From Nitrospira sp. (lineage in GTDB: Bacteria; Nitrospirota; Nitrospiria; Nitrospirales; Nitrospiraceae), in NCBI GenBank assembly GCA_016788465.1, contig JAEURV010000103.1, positions 1-40,216 of the forward strand: DNA of 40,216 nt, given 5' to 3'. Positions 9,596 through 15,296 of the stretch are shown one piece after another. The notes under the pieces were generated by a model. It saw nothing but the letters and a program-made list of their open reading frames with translations, did no database searches and was not told the DNA's origin. Positions within the stretch are counted from its first letter, which is position 1, and every line of letters begins with the position of its first letter. Position numbers and translations under genes: made by a program.

Positions 9596-10687
9596 GTGAT
9601 CTTACGCACACTACTCGATCGCTACATCTTCATCGAGCTGCTGTCTCCGTTCGGGCTCAGCCTCGGCGCCCTCTGTTTTGTCATGTTGACCCGAGAACTG
9701 TTGCGTCTCGTCGAGCTCTTGGTCTCCAAGGGAGTCGGAATCTGGGCCGTGCTCAAAGTGATTGCCATGCTGCTTCCCTCCGGGCTTGTCCTCACGCTGC
9801 CCATTGCCGGACTGATCGCCTCGGTCACCGCCTTCGGTCGGCTGTCCTTCGACAAAGAACTGATCGCCATGCGAGCGGCTGGGCTGAGCCTTGTTCGACT
9901 GTCGCAACCCGTGCTGTTGTTTTCCGTCTGTGTCTTTACCTTGACGTTGATCCTATCGCAGTGGGGACAACCATGGAGTTCATTGAATCTGAAGAAGGTG
10001 GCGCTCAACCTCTTGAAGGACCAACTGGCTCTCGCTCTGGAACGCGGCACCTTCAACGAACCGATCCCAAACATGATGATCTATGTTCCGGAAGGTGAAC
10101 AGGGGCACCCGGCTCCCGGCATCTTCATCTCGGATGAACGCCTTCCCAATGAGCCGCGTGTCATCGTTGCGGAACACTATCGGATCTTCATGGATGCCGA
10201 ACATGACCACGTGGCTCTTCAGTTAGAGAACGGCATGATTCATAGCCGTCCGCCTCAGATTGATCAGTCTCAACAGATTGCGTTTGCCAACTATGACATC
10301 AAGATCAATCTGAACCTCAGCAGTTACGCGGCAACTGAAGAACGTCCTTCCTACGACCAAATCATGGCACGCCTCGCCGAAACCGACGGCAAAGATGCCG
10401 GTGCGCTTCGGCGTATGATGGAATACTACCGAGACTTGGCCTTCCCAACTGCTTCTCTGATATTTTGCCTTCTTGGCGTGCCGGTTGGAATCGTATCGAA
10501 ACGGTCCGGTCGAGTCGGCGGCTTCGCTGTTGGCGTCGGCATCATCATCGCGTTCTACATACTGAATGTCGGATGCGATTTTCTGGTGACGGCCTTGATT
10601 CTTCATCCATTCTGGGGTGCCTGGCTGCCCAACGCTATTTTTATGATCATCACCATGGCGCTGTTCTACCGGGTAAGCAGGCAATAG
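9596..10687 (+). CDS. lptF: LPS export permease LptF (YjgP/YjgQ family)
   Basis: Inner-membrane subunit of the LptB2FG ABC transporter that extracts lipopolysaccharide and hands it to the LptC-A-D bridge. The 363 residues show the family layout: two N-terminal TM helices (LLSPFGLSLGALCFVMLTREL; VIAMLLPSGLVLTLPIAGL), the conserved FGRLSFDKELIAMRAAG cytosolic coupling-helix region (about 81-97), a third TM, a periplasmic beta-jellyroll (about 130-260), and three C-terminal TM helices. The start is GTG, giving MILRTLLDRYI; no strong SD is visible. lptG begins one base after its stop. LptF rather than LptG is assigned by order and by the N-terminal sequence. Confidence 0.93.
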   Translation: MILRTLLDRYIFIELLSPFGLSLGALCFVMLTRELLRLVELLVSKGVGIWAVLKVIAMLLPSGLVLTLPIAGLIASVTAFGRLSFDKELIAMRAAGLSLVRLSQPVLLFSVCVFTLTLILSQWGQPWSSLNLKKVALNLLKDQLALALERGTFNEPIPNMMIYVPEGEQGHPAPGIFISDERLPNEPRVIVAEHYRIFMDAEHDHVALQLENGMIHSRPPQIDQSQQIAFANYDIKINLNLSSYAATEERPSYDQIMARLAETDGKDAGALRRMMEYYRDLAFPTASLIFCLLGVPVGIVSKRSGRVGGFAVGVGIIIAFYILNVGCDFLVTALILHPFWGAWLPNAIFMIITMALFYRVSRQ

Positions 10688-10688
10688 G

Positions 10689-11783
10689 ATGATGACGATT
10701 CTGTTCCGGTATATTCTCCGCGAGTATGCAAAAATCTTCGGCATGTGTTTTTCTGGTTTGGTCACGATCTACTTGGTCATTGATTTTTTTGAAAAGGTCC
10801 GCCGATTTCTTCGCTATGAATCCGGTATCGTACCAATCTTGTTGTACTTTGCCCTGAAAATTCCCTCGATTTCCTTTCAGGTTGCTCCCTTTGCCGTTCT
10901 TGTCGCCACGCTGCTGACGCTGGGCCTTCTCTCCCGTAGCAATGAAATCACGGCGATGCGAAGCTGTGGAGTGAGCCTACTGTGGATGTCGTCCCCCTTT
11001 CTGCTCTTCGCCAGCGGCCTGTCGTTGGTGCTGCTCAGTTTCAGTTCGACCATCATCCCTCTCGCCTCCGAAAAGGCTGAAGAGGTCCGCGCCATCCAAA
11101 TCGAGCAGAAACCGACGCCCGTCACCATCAAAGCCGTTCAGCCTTGGGCTCGAATCAGCGCCGACAGTCTCATGAAGGTGGCTGAGATCGATGCCGAAGG
11201 CAAAACCTTGCGGGGGGTCCGTATTTTTTACTTTCGCGCGCCGTTCCAGCTCGACCGGATTACAGAGGCTGAGGAAGCCCGCTATGCGAGCGACGGTTGG
11301 GTCCTTCGAAACGGCTATCATCGCCAATTTCATTCGAGCGAGCACGTCGAGTTGGCTCGGTTTTCGGAACAGACCATCAGTATTCCGTTGATTCCTGACG
11401 ATTTCACGAGTTCACTCGTGGGGAACTCCGAAACAATGACCTTCGGGGAAATCCACAACTATCTTGAACGCTTTCGCCGGGAAGGATTCACCTTTTCTCG
11501 GCTGCTCACGGATTATCACGATCGTATGGCGTTACCCGTGGTCACGATTGTGATGGTCATCGTCGGAATTGCGCTCAGTCTTCGGCGGAGCGGTGTCCGC
11601 GGGGGAAGTATGACCGTAGGAATCGGTCAAGCCTTCATTGTAGGGTTTTGTTATTGGACCACGCATTCCATCGCCATCGCGCTCGGACGAGGAGGCGCGC
11701 TTGCGCCGATTTTGGCCGGTTGGATGGCGAACACCCTATTCTTGAGCTTCGGTCTGTATTTATTGCTAAAAGTTCGCCATTAG
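10689..11783 (+). CDS. lptG: LPS export permease LptG (YjgP/YjgQ family)
   Basis: Second permease of the LPS exporter. The 364-residue protein begins ILFRYILREYAKIF, typical of LptG, with TM segments near the N-terminus, the LLSRSNEITAMRSCGVSLLWM coupling region (about 78-97), a periplasmic domain of about 150 residues and three C-terminal TM helices. It starts one base after the lptF stop, so the pair is surely co-transcribed. An additional ATG directly follows the first. The partner ATPase LptB and LptA/C are not in this window. Confidence 0.93.
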   Translation: MMTILFRYILREYAKIFGMCFSGLVTIYLVIDFFEKVRRFLRYESGIVPILLYFALKIPSISFQVAPFAVLVATLLTLGLLSRSNEITAMRSCGVSLLWMSSPFLLFASGLSLVLLSFSSTIIPLASEKAEEVRAIQIEQKPTPVTIKAVQPWARISADSLMKVAEIDAEGKTLRGVRIFYFRAPFQLDRITEAEEARYASDGWVLRNGYHRQFHSSEHVELARFSEQTISIPLIPDDFTSSLVGNSETMTFGEIHNYLERFRREGFTFSRLLTDYHDRMALPVVTIVMVIVGIALSLRRSGVRGGSMTVGIGQAFIVGFCYWTTHSIAIALGRGGALAPILAGWMANTLFLSFGLYLLLKVRH

Positions 11784-11861: not shown

Positions 11862-13118
11862 ATGGCCTCACGTGTTGTGATCACAGGTCTGGGGGTGATA
11901 TCTCCGATCGGAATCGGTGTGAGCGAATTCTGGAAATCGGCCCTGACCGGTCGTTCGGGAGTAACCGCCATTCCCTCCTTGGGATGGGTCCCCATGTCAG
12001 ACTACCGTTCTCGGGTAGCCGGCCAGGTTCATAATTTCTCACCAGAACAATACCTGACCGCCACCCAAGCCAATCGCGTCGATCGCTATGCGCAGTTTGC
12101 CTTGGTTGCATCGAAAGAAGCGTTGGCTGACGCGGACCTCAACATGACGAAGGAACGCCCTCACCGTGTTGGAGTGATTGTCGGAGCGGGCATGGGAGGA
12201 ATGGTCATGGGTGAGCGTGAAATTACGCAACTCTTCAAAACCCAACGTCCCCATCGGGTCCATCCCAATTTTATTCCGACCATTACACTCAATTCAGCCT
12301 CGGGCATTGTTGCGATGGCGCACGGAGCCAAAGGCCCCAACCTCACCATCTCAACGGCTTGTTCGTCCAGCGCTCATGCCCTTGGCCAGGCATTCCATTG
12401 CATTCGAACCGGGCAGGCCGATGCCGTCATTGCTGTTGGAGCCGATGCCAGCATTACTCCGCTGGTCTTCGCAGGATTCTGTTCCCTGCGCGCCCTATCC
12501 AGTGAGTTTAACGATGCCCCTGAACGCGCGTCGCGCCCCTTCGACCGACGCCGGGACGGTTTCGTCATGGGTGAGGGAGCCGCCGCGTTGATCGTGGAAT
12601 CATTGGCACACGCCAAGAAGCGGAAGGCCCGAGTCTATGCCGAGCTCGCCGGATATGCGGCAACGAGTGAAGCCTACCACATGGTGATTCCTCAGGAGGA
12701 TGGGCAAGAGATTAGCATGACCATGAAGATCGGGCTGGATTCAGCTGGGATCAGCTCCGATCAGGTGGACTACATTAATGCCCATGCAACGTCGACCACG
12801 ATCGGAGATGCCGTCGAGACAAAGGCGATCCGGAATCTCTTCAAGAGCCGGGCAGACAAGATCGCCATCAATGCCACAAAATCTCTCGTCGGTCATACGC
12901 TTGGAGCAGCGGGCGCAATCGGGGCCGTTGCCACCACGTTGGCAATCCATACCGGACAGATTCACCCGACCGCCAACTATGAAGAACCAGACCCGGACTG
13001 CCGGTTGGACGGCATTCGTCGGACGACTCAAGAACGAAAGATTCGGTATGCCCTCTTAAATGCATTCGGATTCGGCAGTAACAATGCCACCGTGGTCTTC
13101 AAGCGGTTTGTGGCGTAA
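11862..13118 (+). CDS. fabF: 3-oxoacyl-ACP synthase, FabF family
   Basis: Condensing enzyme extending acyl-ACP with malonyl-ACP by decarboxylative Claisen condensation, cytosolic. The 418 residues match KAS II length. Catalytic residues are visible: Cys167 in TACSSSAHALG, His308 in NAHATSTTIGD, Lys340 in NATKSLVGH and His345, plus the C-terminal GFGSNNATVVF. The start has AGGAGG seven bases upstream. It sits between lptG and a special acyl carrier protein plus lpxD, suggesting it makes acyl chains for lipid A rather than bulk fatty acid (inference). No fabD/fabG/fabH lies nearby, so it may be a second FabF paralogue in the genome. Confidence 0.93.
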   Translation: MASRVVITGLGVISPIGIGVSEFWKSALTGRSGVTAIPSLGWVPMSDYRSRVAGQVHNFSPEQYLTATQANRVDRYAQFALVASKEALADADLNMTKERPHRVGVIVGAGMGGMVMGEREITQLFKTQRPHRVHPNFIPTITLNSASGIVAMAHGAKGPNLTISTACSSSAHALGQAFHCIRTGQADAVIAVGADASITPLVFAGFCSLRALSSEFNDAPERASRPFDRRRDGFVMGEGAAALIVESLAHAKKRKARVYAELAGYAATSEAYHMVIPQEDGQEISMTMKIGLDSAGISSDQVDYINAHATSTTIGDAVETKAIRNLFKSRADKIAINATKSLVGHTLGAAGAIGAVATTLAIHTGQIHPTANYEEPDPDCRLDGIRRTTQERKIRYALLNAFGFGSNNATVVFKRFVA

Positions 13119-13201: not shown

Positions 13202-13657
13202 ATGATGACTGAACGGATCGACCCCGCGATCACCGAAAAAATCGTCCATGCGTTGGCCACCTACCTAAAGCGAGACCCTGCGTCCATCACGGAGAGCCAC
13301 CACCTCCGAGACGATCTGGGACTGGACTCCGTCGCCGTGATCGAACTCCTGTTTGAGATCGAAGAACGTTTCAAACTTCAAATTCCGGATCAGGACCTTC
13401 CTGGGCTCAGCACCGTCGGATCGGTTGCGGCCTATGTCCAACGACGGTTGGCTGAATCGCCTACCACGGCCCCATCCGAATCCCCAAAGCCGGCGGCTAA
13501 ATCATCCAAAGCCAGTACGCAAAAGTCCGCCGCCAAGAAACCCAGCTCATCAAAATCTACTTCAAAGAAACCGGCATCGCCGAAATCATCCTCGGCCAAA
13601 CCCAAAGCGAGATCATCGGCAACAGCCAAGACCAAGAAGAAGGGTACAACACGATGA
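13202..13657 (+). CDS. Acyl carrier protein with long basic low-complexity tail
   Basis: Residues about 1-84 form a standard ACP: helices with the 4'-phosphopantetheine site DLGLDS (Ser43), followed by [21 protein letters not shown] and [14 protein letters not shown]. From about residue 86 to 151 comes a tail made almost wholly of Lys, Ser, Ala, Pro and Thr, with SKK/AKK/PKS units, like a histone H1 or nucleoid-protein tail. Typical ACPs are 75-95 residues. AAGGAG lies five bases before the ATG; the next codon is also ATG. The stop overlaps the lpxD start (ATGA), so the two are translationally coupled. It probably delivers the acyl chain to LpxD; the role of the tail is unknown. Confidence 0.88.
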
Positions 13658-14748
13658 GCACGCCTCAACTCCCCACACCGCTGACACTCGCCCAAATTCA
13701 TGAAGTCGTCGGAGGGACCGTTCATGGCGACCTCCAGACACAGATCTCTTCCTTGACAAGTCTCGCTCAAGCCAATTCCTGTGCCCTATCCTTCGTCACG
13801 AATGACAAGATGGCCAAGGCTGCAACGAATGTGCAGGTTGCGGCCCTTCTGATCCATCGGTATCAGCCGGATCTCGCCATTCCTCAAATTGTGGTCGATA
13901 ATCCCATGCTTGCATTCGCACGTGTCGCGCAGAAGTTTTTCGTCCAGGCCCCGCCTCCCAGAGGCATTGCCGACCAAGTCATACAAGGGACTGATGTACG
14001 GATAGGTTCCGACCCATCTATTTGGCCGTTTGTGACGCTCGGTGACCATGTCACGATTGGGAACCGCGTGACCCTCTACCCGGGAGTTTTTGTAGGATCA
14101 GGTTCAACGATCGGAGACGATTGTGTTTTGTATCCTAACGTCGTGGTCCGCGAAGCCTGTTCACTTGGCGCTCGCGTGATCGTCCATAGCGGTACGGTGA
14201 TCGGAGCGGATGGGTTCGGCTATGTTCAGCATCAAGGCCGCCACCACAAAATTCCTCAACTCGGTGGCGTCATCATTGAGGACGATGTAGAGCTGGGCGC
14301 CAATGTAACAATCGATCGTGCCACATTCGGCCATACCCTGGTGAAGCAGGGGACCAAAGTTGACAATCTGGTTCAAATTGCCCACAACGTCATTGTTGGG
14401 GAGCACTGCATTCTTGTTGCGCAAGTGGGCATCGCTGGCAGTACGACGATCGGGCGACATGTCATGATCGGGGGACAAGCCGGTCTCGCCGACCACCTTA
14501 CAATCGGGGATCAGGTGATGATCGCGGCAAAATCCGGTGTCAATCGCAGCATTGAGTCGAACCAAGTCGTCGGCGGCATACCGGCCATGCCACGTGAAAA
14601 GGCCTTAAGGATTCAAGGCGGAATCTTTCAGCTCCCGGAGACACGGGATACGGTCCGTAACCTTGAGCAGCGCGTGACGGCGCTGGAACACCAAGCGAAG
14701 TCGACATCACGACGACGAACGCCTGGGCCAAAGAAACGTCGTTCGTGA
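13654..14748 (+). CDS. lpxD: UDP-3-O-acylglucosamine N-acyltransferase LpxD
   Basis: Third enzyme of lipid A synthesis, transferring a 3-hydroxyacyl chain from ACP to UDP-3-O-acyl-glucosamine. The N-terminal uridine-binding domain (about 10-100) contains the [13 protein letters not shown] segment and ends in [15 protein letters not shown] left-handed beta-helix of hexapeptide repeats spans about 110-310, with GADGFGY (184-190), IDRATFG (220-226) and the presumed catalytic His244 in [13 protein letters not shown]-terminal helix (about 335-350) is followed by a basic tail ([13 protein letters not shown]), lengthening it to 364 residues against about 340 in E. coli. Its ATG overlaps the ACP stop. 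It is the last gene of the + strand block. Confidence 0.95.
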
Positions 14749-14765: not shown

Positions 14766-15296
14766 CTACTTTGCCATAGTGATGACTCTCCTCCAAAGGA
14801 ACATCTTGGCCCAATAGAATCCGGCCCATGGCATAAGGATGGCCGGAATCATATGCACCCGCCCGTATGAAAATGCGGCAATCGCACTTCCCACGAGCAG
14901 CAAGATGCCCAAGCCGTAGGCCAGCGGAATAAATTGGCGCCCTGTATGTTCTATCTCAGGTGCGGATGGCTGTTTCTTAAGTTTCCCCTTCTGTCTGTTC
15001 AAACCGTCCCTCATCCGTGCGGCAAGAACTTCAGGGAACTCCCGAAGAAGATACCGCTGGTACAGGGTTTGTGCCGCGCCTAGACCTATGCCTGAAAGGA
15101 ATAAGCCTGAACTCTGATAAAAAGTATCCCACGTGTAACTATCACTTCCGAGCAACTGGTAGCCCAGCCCGCCAACACTCCCGACTAAGCAAACTAGGCC
15201 GAGAAAGCCTGAGGGAAACAGAATATACGTCTTCACATACTCGAGCGCCTGCTGCATCGTTTGCTGCGGATGGTGAACGGTAATAAGTTTTGGCAC
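14766..15296 (-). CDS. Membrane protein of unknown function
   Basis: A 176-residue protein I cannot assign to a named family. Four hydrophobic stretches are visible: about 28-47 (ILFPSGFLGLVCLVGSVGGLG), 66-80 (LFLSGIGLGAAQTLY), 127-143 (LAYGLGILLLVGSAIAAF) and 150-166 (IPAILMPWAGFYWAKMF). They are separated by a basic cytosolic-like loop with RDGLNRQKGKLKKQ. The start is GTG at 15296, with AGGGG six bases upstream. It converges on lpxD, the two stops being 17 bp apart, and has no obvious operon partner. Coding is supported by the clean frame, the SD and membrane-protein composition. Confidence 0.7.
   Translation of the reverse strand: MPKLITVHHPQQTMQQALEYVKTYILFPSGFLGLVCLVGSVGGLGYQLLGSDSYTWDTFYQSSGLFLSGIGLGAAQTLYQRYLLREFPEVLAARMRDGLNRQKGKLKKQPSAPEIEHTGRQFIPLAYGLGILLLVGSAIAAFSYGRVHMIPAILMPWAGFYWAKMFLWRRVITMAK

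Follow-up and report, generated by a model that had tools for sequence, protein, structure and literature searches.

An additional acyl carrier protein with a conserved basic tail in the lpxD operon of Nitrospira

What would a long basic tail do on an acyl carrier protein (ACP)? ACPs are textbook freely diffusing, strongly acidic carriers. A 40,216-nucleotide stretch of Nitrospira sp. DNA (contig JAEURV010000103.1; the whole stretch is called the window here) holds, at 13202-13657 of the forward strand, an open reading frame of 151 amino acids that encodes a complete ACP domain and then a 68-residue basic tail. A preliminary description had read this protein as a dedicated lipid A carrier, perhaps tethered to the membrane surface or to acidic partners; the FabF-like synthase directly upstream was absent from its account of 13202-13657. 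Our search of the literature on Nitrospira lipid A or basic-tailed ACPs found no relevant paper.

Results

The ACP core (residues 1-83; 13202..13450) is otherwise normal, as first described. PF00550 matches residues 12-79 with 53 bits (gathering score 20.8; 4e-14), and Ser43 in DLGLDS, the predicted phosphopantetheine site (codon 13328-13330), is invariant in 97 of 97 aligned relatives. The AF2 model has four helices (8-22, 43-57, 63-68 and 72-85) with a block-mean pLDDT of about 82-88 over the core, and Foldseek run with this model gave ACP chains as its top matches (TMt about 0.85-0.91 to many ACPs). Profile score, invariant serine and four-helix bundle thus place the protein among the ACPs of the PF00550 fold.

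In NCBIfam, however, even the 25 best models all score it below their cut-offs. It shares the four-helix fold, the DS motif and the invariant acidic E48/E54 with canonical AcpP, yet reaches only 52.5 bits against the TIGR00517 cut-off of 70.45; its relatives mostly have Ala for the Asp two residues after the serine, and its core carries a net charge of -5, whereas AcpP of the same genome has -16. The best PDB sequence match is the mycobacterial meromycolate carrier AcpM (1klp, 7bvc), also a longer-than-usual ACP; the score against the AcpM model NF040636 is 51 bits, below the cut-off of 146. AcpM serves mycolate synthesis, and its C-terminal extension is not known to be lysine-rich. Since AcpM has 115 amino acids, and ACPs of more than 95 are thus known, length, which had been counted as part of the oddity, is not unusual; the basic charge is. 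Other acp genes had been asked after: an ordinary, untailed AcpP is encoded next to canonical fabF and a FabG-like reductase gene. Judged by its sequence, 13202-13657 encodes a predicted carrier, a second type II ACP beside ordinary AcpP. One further untailed ACP-like reading frame, of ~85 residues and 45% identical to the core, was seen outside the operon in another genome (L114:2450-2680, G249).

The tail (residues 84-151; 13451..13654), previously given as about 65 residues of Lys/Ser/Ala/Pro repeats, is of low complexity, with a net charge of +16. It consists of 24% K, 26% S, 18% A, 12% P and 12% T, with zero V, L, I, M, F, W, Y or C, and is predicted to be disordered; AF2 renders it non-helical at low confidence (pLDDT about 43-60). 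A scan of one genome per species gave 53 related loci, with titles nearly all Nitrospira or Nitrospiraceae, and the reading frame runs on into a basic tail everywhere except at contig ends, at an N-gap (L050) and in two broken copies (L036, L039). A search with the core only, in 296 genomes of the phylum, found relatives in 86, nearly all of the same order, and added 36 operonic loci with an intact ACP, all with a basic tail (19 to 102 residues, +5 to +24). Among the intact orthologues examined across the order (about 84, some species being represented twice, from two collections), every tail is positive (19-102 residues, +5 to +27), and we found no intact operonic orthologue with a neutral, acidic or absent tail. 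In L130, the sole relative from outside the order, the tail carries -4. At 30 of 30 loci read from the same family as the window, canonical AcpP is untailed and stops at residue 77.

Two trivial explanations, which the preliminary description had named itself, fail on these data. Origin of the tail by a frameshift or read-through was rejected because of the basic tail in every intact orthologue, the tail dN/dS and the retention of charge, and relatives ending near residue 85 number zero among intact operonic orthologues. It is also conceivable that the tail is low-complexity sequence that expanded without selection, as its range of lengths and its dN/dS would allow (genus median about 0.24, against about 0.05 for the core). 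Genus tails, however, hold a net charge of at least +14 at 22-68% tail identity, with the exception of two short tails (L042, L055), and mostly have <10% bulky or hydrophobic residues, whereas a neutral simulation started from the window's tail, which is simple and serves as a guide rather than a formal test, gave, at 30-60% identity, mean charges between +6 and +10 and a share of such residues of 14-27%. The tail sequence turns over quickly while the charge stays. Charge and scarcity of hydrophobic residues thus seem to be kept, order-wide, beyond the neutral simulation, suggesting selection on charge. Together with the fact that AcpP is never tailed while the adjoining LpxD is tailed too, this makes neutral expansion highly improbable.

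We also considered whether basic tails are a general habit of Nitrospira proteins. This was rejected for the 800 kb sampled from a complete Nitrospira genome (G147): when 783 mechanically called open reading frames were ranked by charge among low-hydrophobicity C-termini, the ACP came first and LpxD second.

The ACP gene lies in a conserved cluster on the forward strand. Its first gene is lptF (9596..10687), an LPS export permease gene assigned by synteny and a TIGR04407 match just under the cut-off (3.5e-66), followed by lptG for a second permease (10689..11783; TIGR04408, 4.8e-80, over the cut-off) and by a gene for a FabF-type beta-ketoacyl-ACP synthase (KAS; 11862..13118). The KAS scores 514.9 bits against the TIGR03150 cut-off of 493.75 and has the Cys-His-Lys-His tetrad of the FabF family (C167/H308/K340/H345), which is invariant in 92-93 relatives. 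Exactly two proteins of the genome match FabF, both over the cut-off, namely this KAS and canonical FabF, and they are 42% identical. The ACP stop codon overlaps the lpxD start in an ATGA (13654..13657), from which translational coupling of the two genes is likely; many relatives have a short gap instead. The usual arrangement lptF-lptG-KAS-ACP-lpxD is present at essentially all genus loci and across two families of the order, and at three loci where lptFG are no longer adjacent (L127-L129), KAS, ACP and lpxD are still together. The preliminary description had proposed looking for tailed ACPs beside lpxD in other genomes, and the order-wide orthologues supply them. Downstream of lpxD, a conserved 176-residue protein without a Pfam match is encoded on the opposite strand (14766-15296) at nearly all Nitrospira loci.

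The lpxD gene (13654..14748), the sole one in the genome, encodes a UDP-3-O-acylglucosamine N-acyltransferase with 366 bits against the TIGR01853 cut-off of 242.5. Its catalytic His, H244, aligns with H239 of E. coli LpxD (4IHF/4IHG/4IHH), and R298 with E. coli R293. E. coli LpxD uses an ordinary ACP and has no basic extension, whereas the Nitrospira protein continues for about 19 residues past the end of the alignment (residues 346-364; 14689..14745), bearing out the basic C-terminus reported for it. The extension follows the C-terminal helix (328-353), the only part for which we used the AF2 model, which was made from a shallow alignment and is poor (mean pLDDT 57). LpxD usually ends in a basic stretch after this helix in genomes with the KAS-ACP pair (the cassette); over the last 25 residues the mean charge is +6.3 where the ACP is present (n=84) and +2.5 where it is lacking (n=36), a comparison confounded by shared ancestry. 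Two LpxD proteins without a neighbouring ACP (L212, L195) have strongly basic tails, of +9 and +10 over these final 25 residues; possession of an LpxD tail is therefore not tied to the ACP. The residue corresponding to M290, the pocket floor of E. coli LpxD, is Gly295 (G298 in Chlamydia); this was rejected as a longer-chain signature of the cassette, since Gly is common in the class, and equally so without the cassette. At 23 loci from other families of the class lpxD adjoins skp, fabZ and lpxA. Within this order it lies outside that cluster (L221; window 13654-14748; L181-L205), having been relocated from the usual skp-lpxD-fabZ-lpxA arrangement; the window's genome has skp-skp-fabZ-lpxA followed by an lpxI-like reading frame.

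A comparable arrangement exists in rhizobia and Agrobacterium, where AcpXL is encoded with fabF2XL-fabF1XL in a cluster with the lipid A acyltransferase LpxXL (PMC11901934). In both systems an additional, dedicated ACP and one or more FabF-type synthases of its own are encoded in a cluster with a lipid A acyltransferase. The AcpXL system, however, serves a late acyltransferase and has its own FabZ and dehydrogenase, whereas the Nitrospira neighbours are lptF, lptG, a single KAS and lpxD, with FabZ encoded elsewhere in the skp-fabZ-lpxA cluster; the Nitrospira ACP also has the basic tail, and it reaches the cut-off of none of the NCBIfam ACP models listed. As acyltransferase, gene content and ACP subfamily differ, we do not class the tailed ACP as AcpXL.

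We compared genomes in which the cassette is missing or decayed. Within one sister genus (g13, family f2), two genomes (G179, G229) keep lptG-KAS-ACP-lpxD, and in seven others, as in G133 of another genus, the cassette is absent and lptG is joined directly to lpxD. Four more genomes (G206, G243, G137, G285) have lpxD with neither lptFG nor ACP adjoining. LpxD is therefore not strictly dependent on the cassette. LpxA was searched for in five genomes, and both of those with the cassette were positive. The other three have no detectable LpxA: the 1.8-Mb genome G161, where no KAS orthologue, ACP or LpxD was found either; G108, which keeps the KAS and where neither ACP nor LpxD was found; and the 1.7-Mb genome G165, where a deletion has fused the start of the KAS to an ACP that is truncated and frameshifted, and the LpxD reading frame is intact. 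In all three the ACP is thus lost or broken, and all three retain AcpP. An assembly gap was rejected for G108, as the contig is unbroken past the KAS into unrelated genes; the locus (L268:6998-8700) runs straight on into genes that include CheW-like and response-regulator-like reading frames. The G165 locus (L131:5909-6222) is a case of natural decay, with the tail codons out of frame. In a further g13 genome, G245, the KAS gene is reduced to a remnant, its start fused to its end (L121:5900-6530, minus strand), and the ACP that follows is intact, with the weakest tail seen (+5).

These patterns bear on whether the KAS-ACP pair feeds some other envelope lipid, with adjacency to lpxD reflecting co-regulation only. 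The cassette can be missing while LpxD stays, and the contig of L130, which belongs to a different family, has KAS and ACP as a pair but lacks lpxD, both as this alternative would predict. Against it stand the order-wide adjacency, including the three loci where KAS-ACP-lpxD has stayed together apart from lptFG, and the loss of the ACP in the three genomes found without LpxA, and we regard it as distinctly unlikely. Two points also count against a dedicated supply to LpxD: the LpxD reading frame outlives KAS-ACP in G165, and the ACP outlives an intact KAS in G245. On balance, the operon with lpxD throughout the order, the KAS partner and the joint loss with the lipid A pathway make the proposal of a dedicated lipid A carrier well supported.

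Discussion

We propose that the KAS-ACP pair builds a 3-hydroxyacyl chain and hands it to LpxD, while the basic tails hold ACP and LpxD on an anionic surface, a proposal to which we give an even chance. The adjacent KAS would elongate the acyl chain on the tailed ACP, reduction by a general FabG would give the (R)-3-hydroxyacyl group, and LpxD of the same operon would attach this group to the nitrogen of glucosamine in the lipid A precursor. The disordered tail would act through its charge, not its sequence, and together with the LpxD extension would keep acyl donor and acyltransferase on one anionic surface, for which the cytoplasmic side of the inner membrane is the likeliest candidate. Such co-location would raise the local concentration and separate this acyl pool from that of AcpP. 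We infer the acyl species, its hand-over to LpxD and the binding of the tails to a membrane from the computed features of the locus.

To what might the tail bind? All orthologues of the operon KAS are neutral or carry a net positive charge, and most of those of LpxD are positive, which makes bulk attraction of the ACP tail to the enzymes of its operon unlikely. We therefore disfavour a role for the tail as a strap that docks onto KAS or LpxD, and this part of the earlier suggestion of acidic partners falls away. An acidic surface elsewhere is the more likely target: membrane lipid, nucleic acid or the acidic face of the ACP itself. The simplest reading would be a third anionic partner common to both tails. 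Later lipid A steps occur at the inner membrane surface, which makes this surface the natural candidate; the tether itself stays at the level of our proposal, and the tail lacks membrane-inserting hydrophobic residues, a point against it.

The closest rival to a tether is a specificity gate, in which the basic tail folds over the acidic face that helices II/III present on the same ACP domain, and only the operon KAS and LpxD displace it. Genus orthologues have cores of -4 to -8 beneath positive tails, and the charge of the operon KAS, in contrast to -6 for canonical FabF, makes a charge-based choice of partner plausible. Docking of E. coli ACP on the LpxD C-terminal domain depends mainly on charge (PMC6286764), and this also fits such a gate. 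Self-masking, however, leaves unexplained the similar basic C-terminus of LpxD, which has no acidic carrier domain; tails of up to 102 residues exceed what it needs, and AF2 shows the tail only as low-confidence disorder. We consider a gate of this kind unlikely.

It is also possible that both tails bind nucleic acid, for instance their own mRNA or polysomes, which would lead to co-translational assembly or to association with the nucleoid. The tail, rich in lysine, alanine, proline and serine, resembles histone H1-like tails in composition, and coupled translation with lpxD is likely in this lineage from the ATGA overlap. Yet no nucleic-acid-binding domain is present, such tails are confined to the two lipid A proteins in the sampled part of G147, and the tail is also present where the ACP and lpxD genes are spaced apart. 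Binding to nucleic acid therefore appears improbable.

Returning to the anionic-surface proposal, it may be taken further, to an LpxD step that works as a membrane-surface unit in which KAS-ACP and LpxD, with their charge-conserved basic tails, supply lipid A from an acyl pool of their own; this we advance tentatively, as a possibility that we rather doubt. If true, the tailed ACP would be a type II acyl carrier confined in space by a charge-based tether, a mechanism that the literature we found does not describe for ACPs. The order-wide presence of a basic-tailed ACP beside a basic-tailed acyltransferase suggests a simple way of partitioning acyl pools within one cytoplasm. Nitrite-oxidising Nitrospira are environmentally important and hard to grow, and the locus predicts an as yet unstudied choice of acyl chain in their lipid A.
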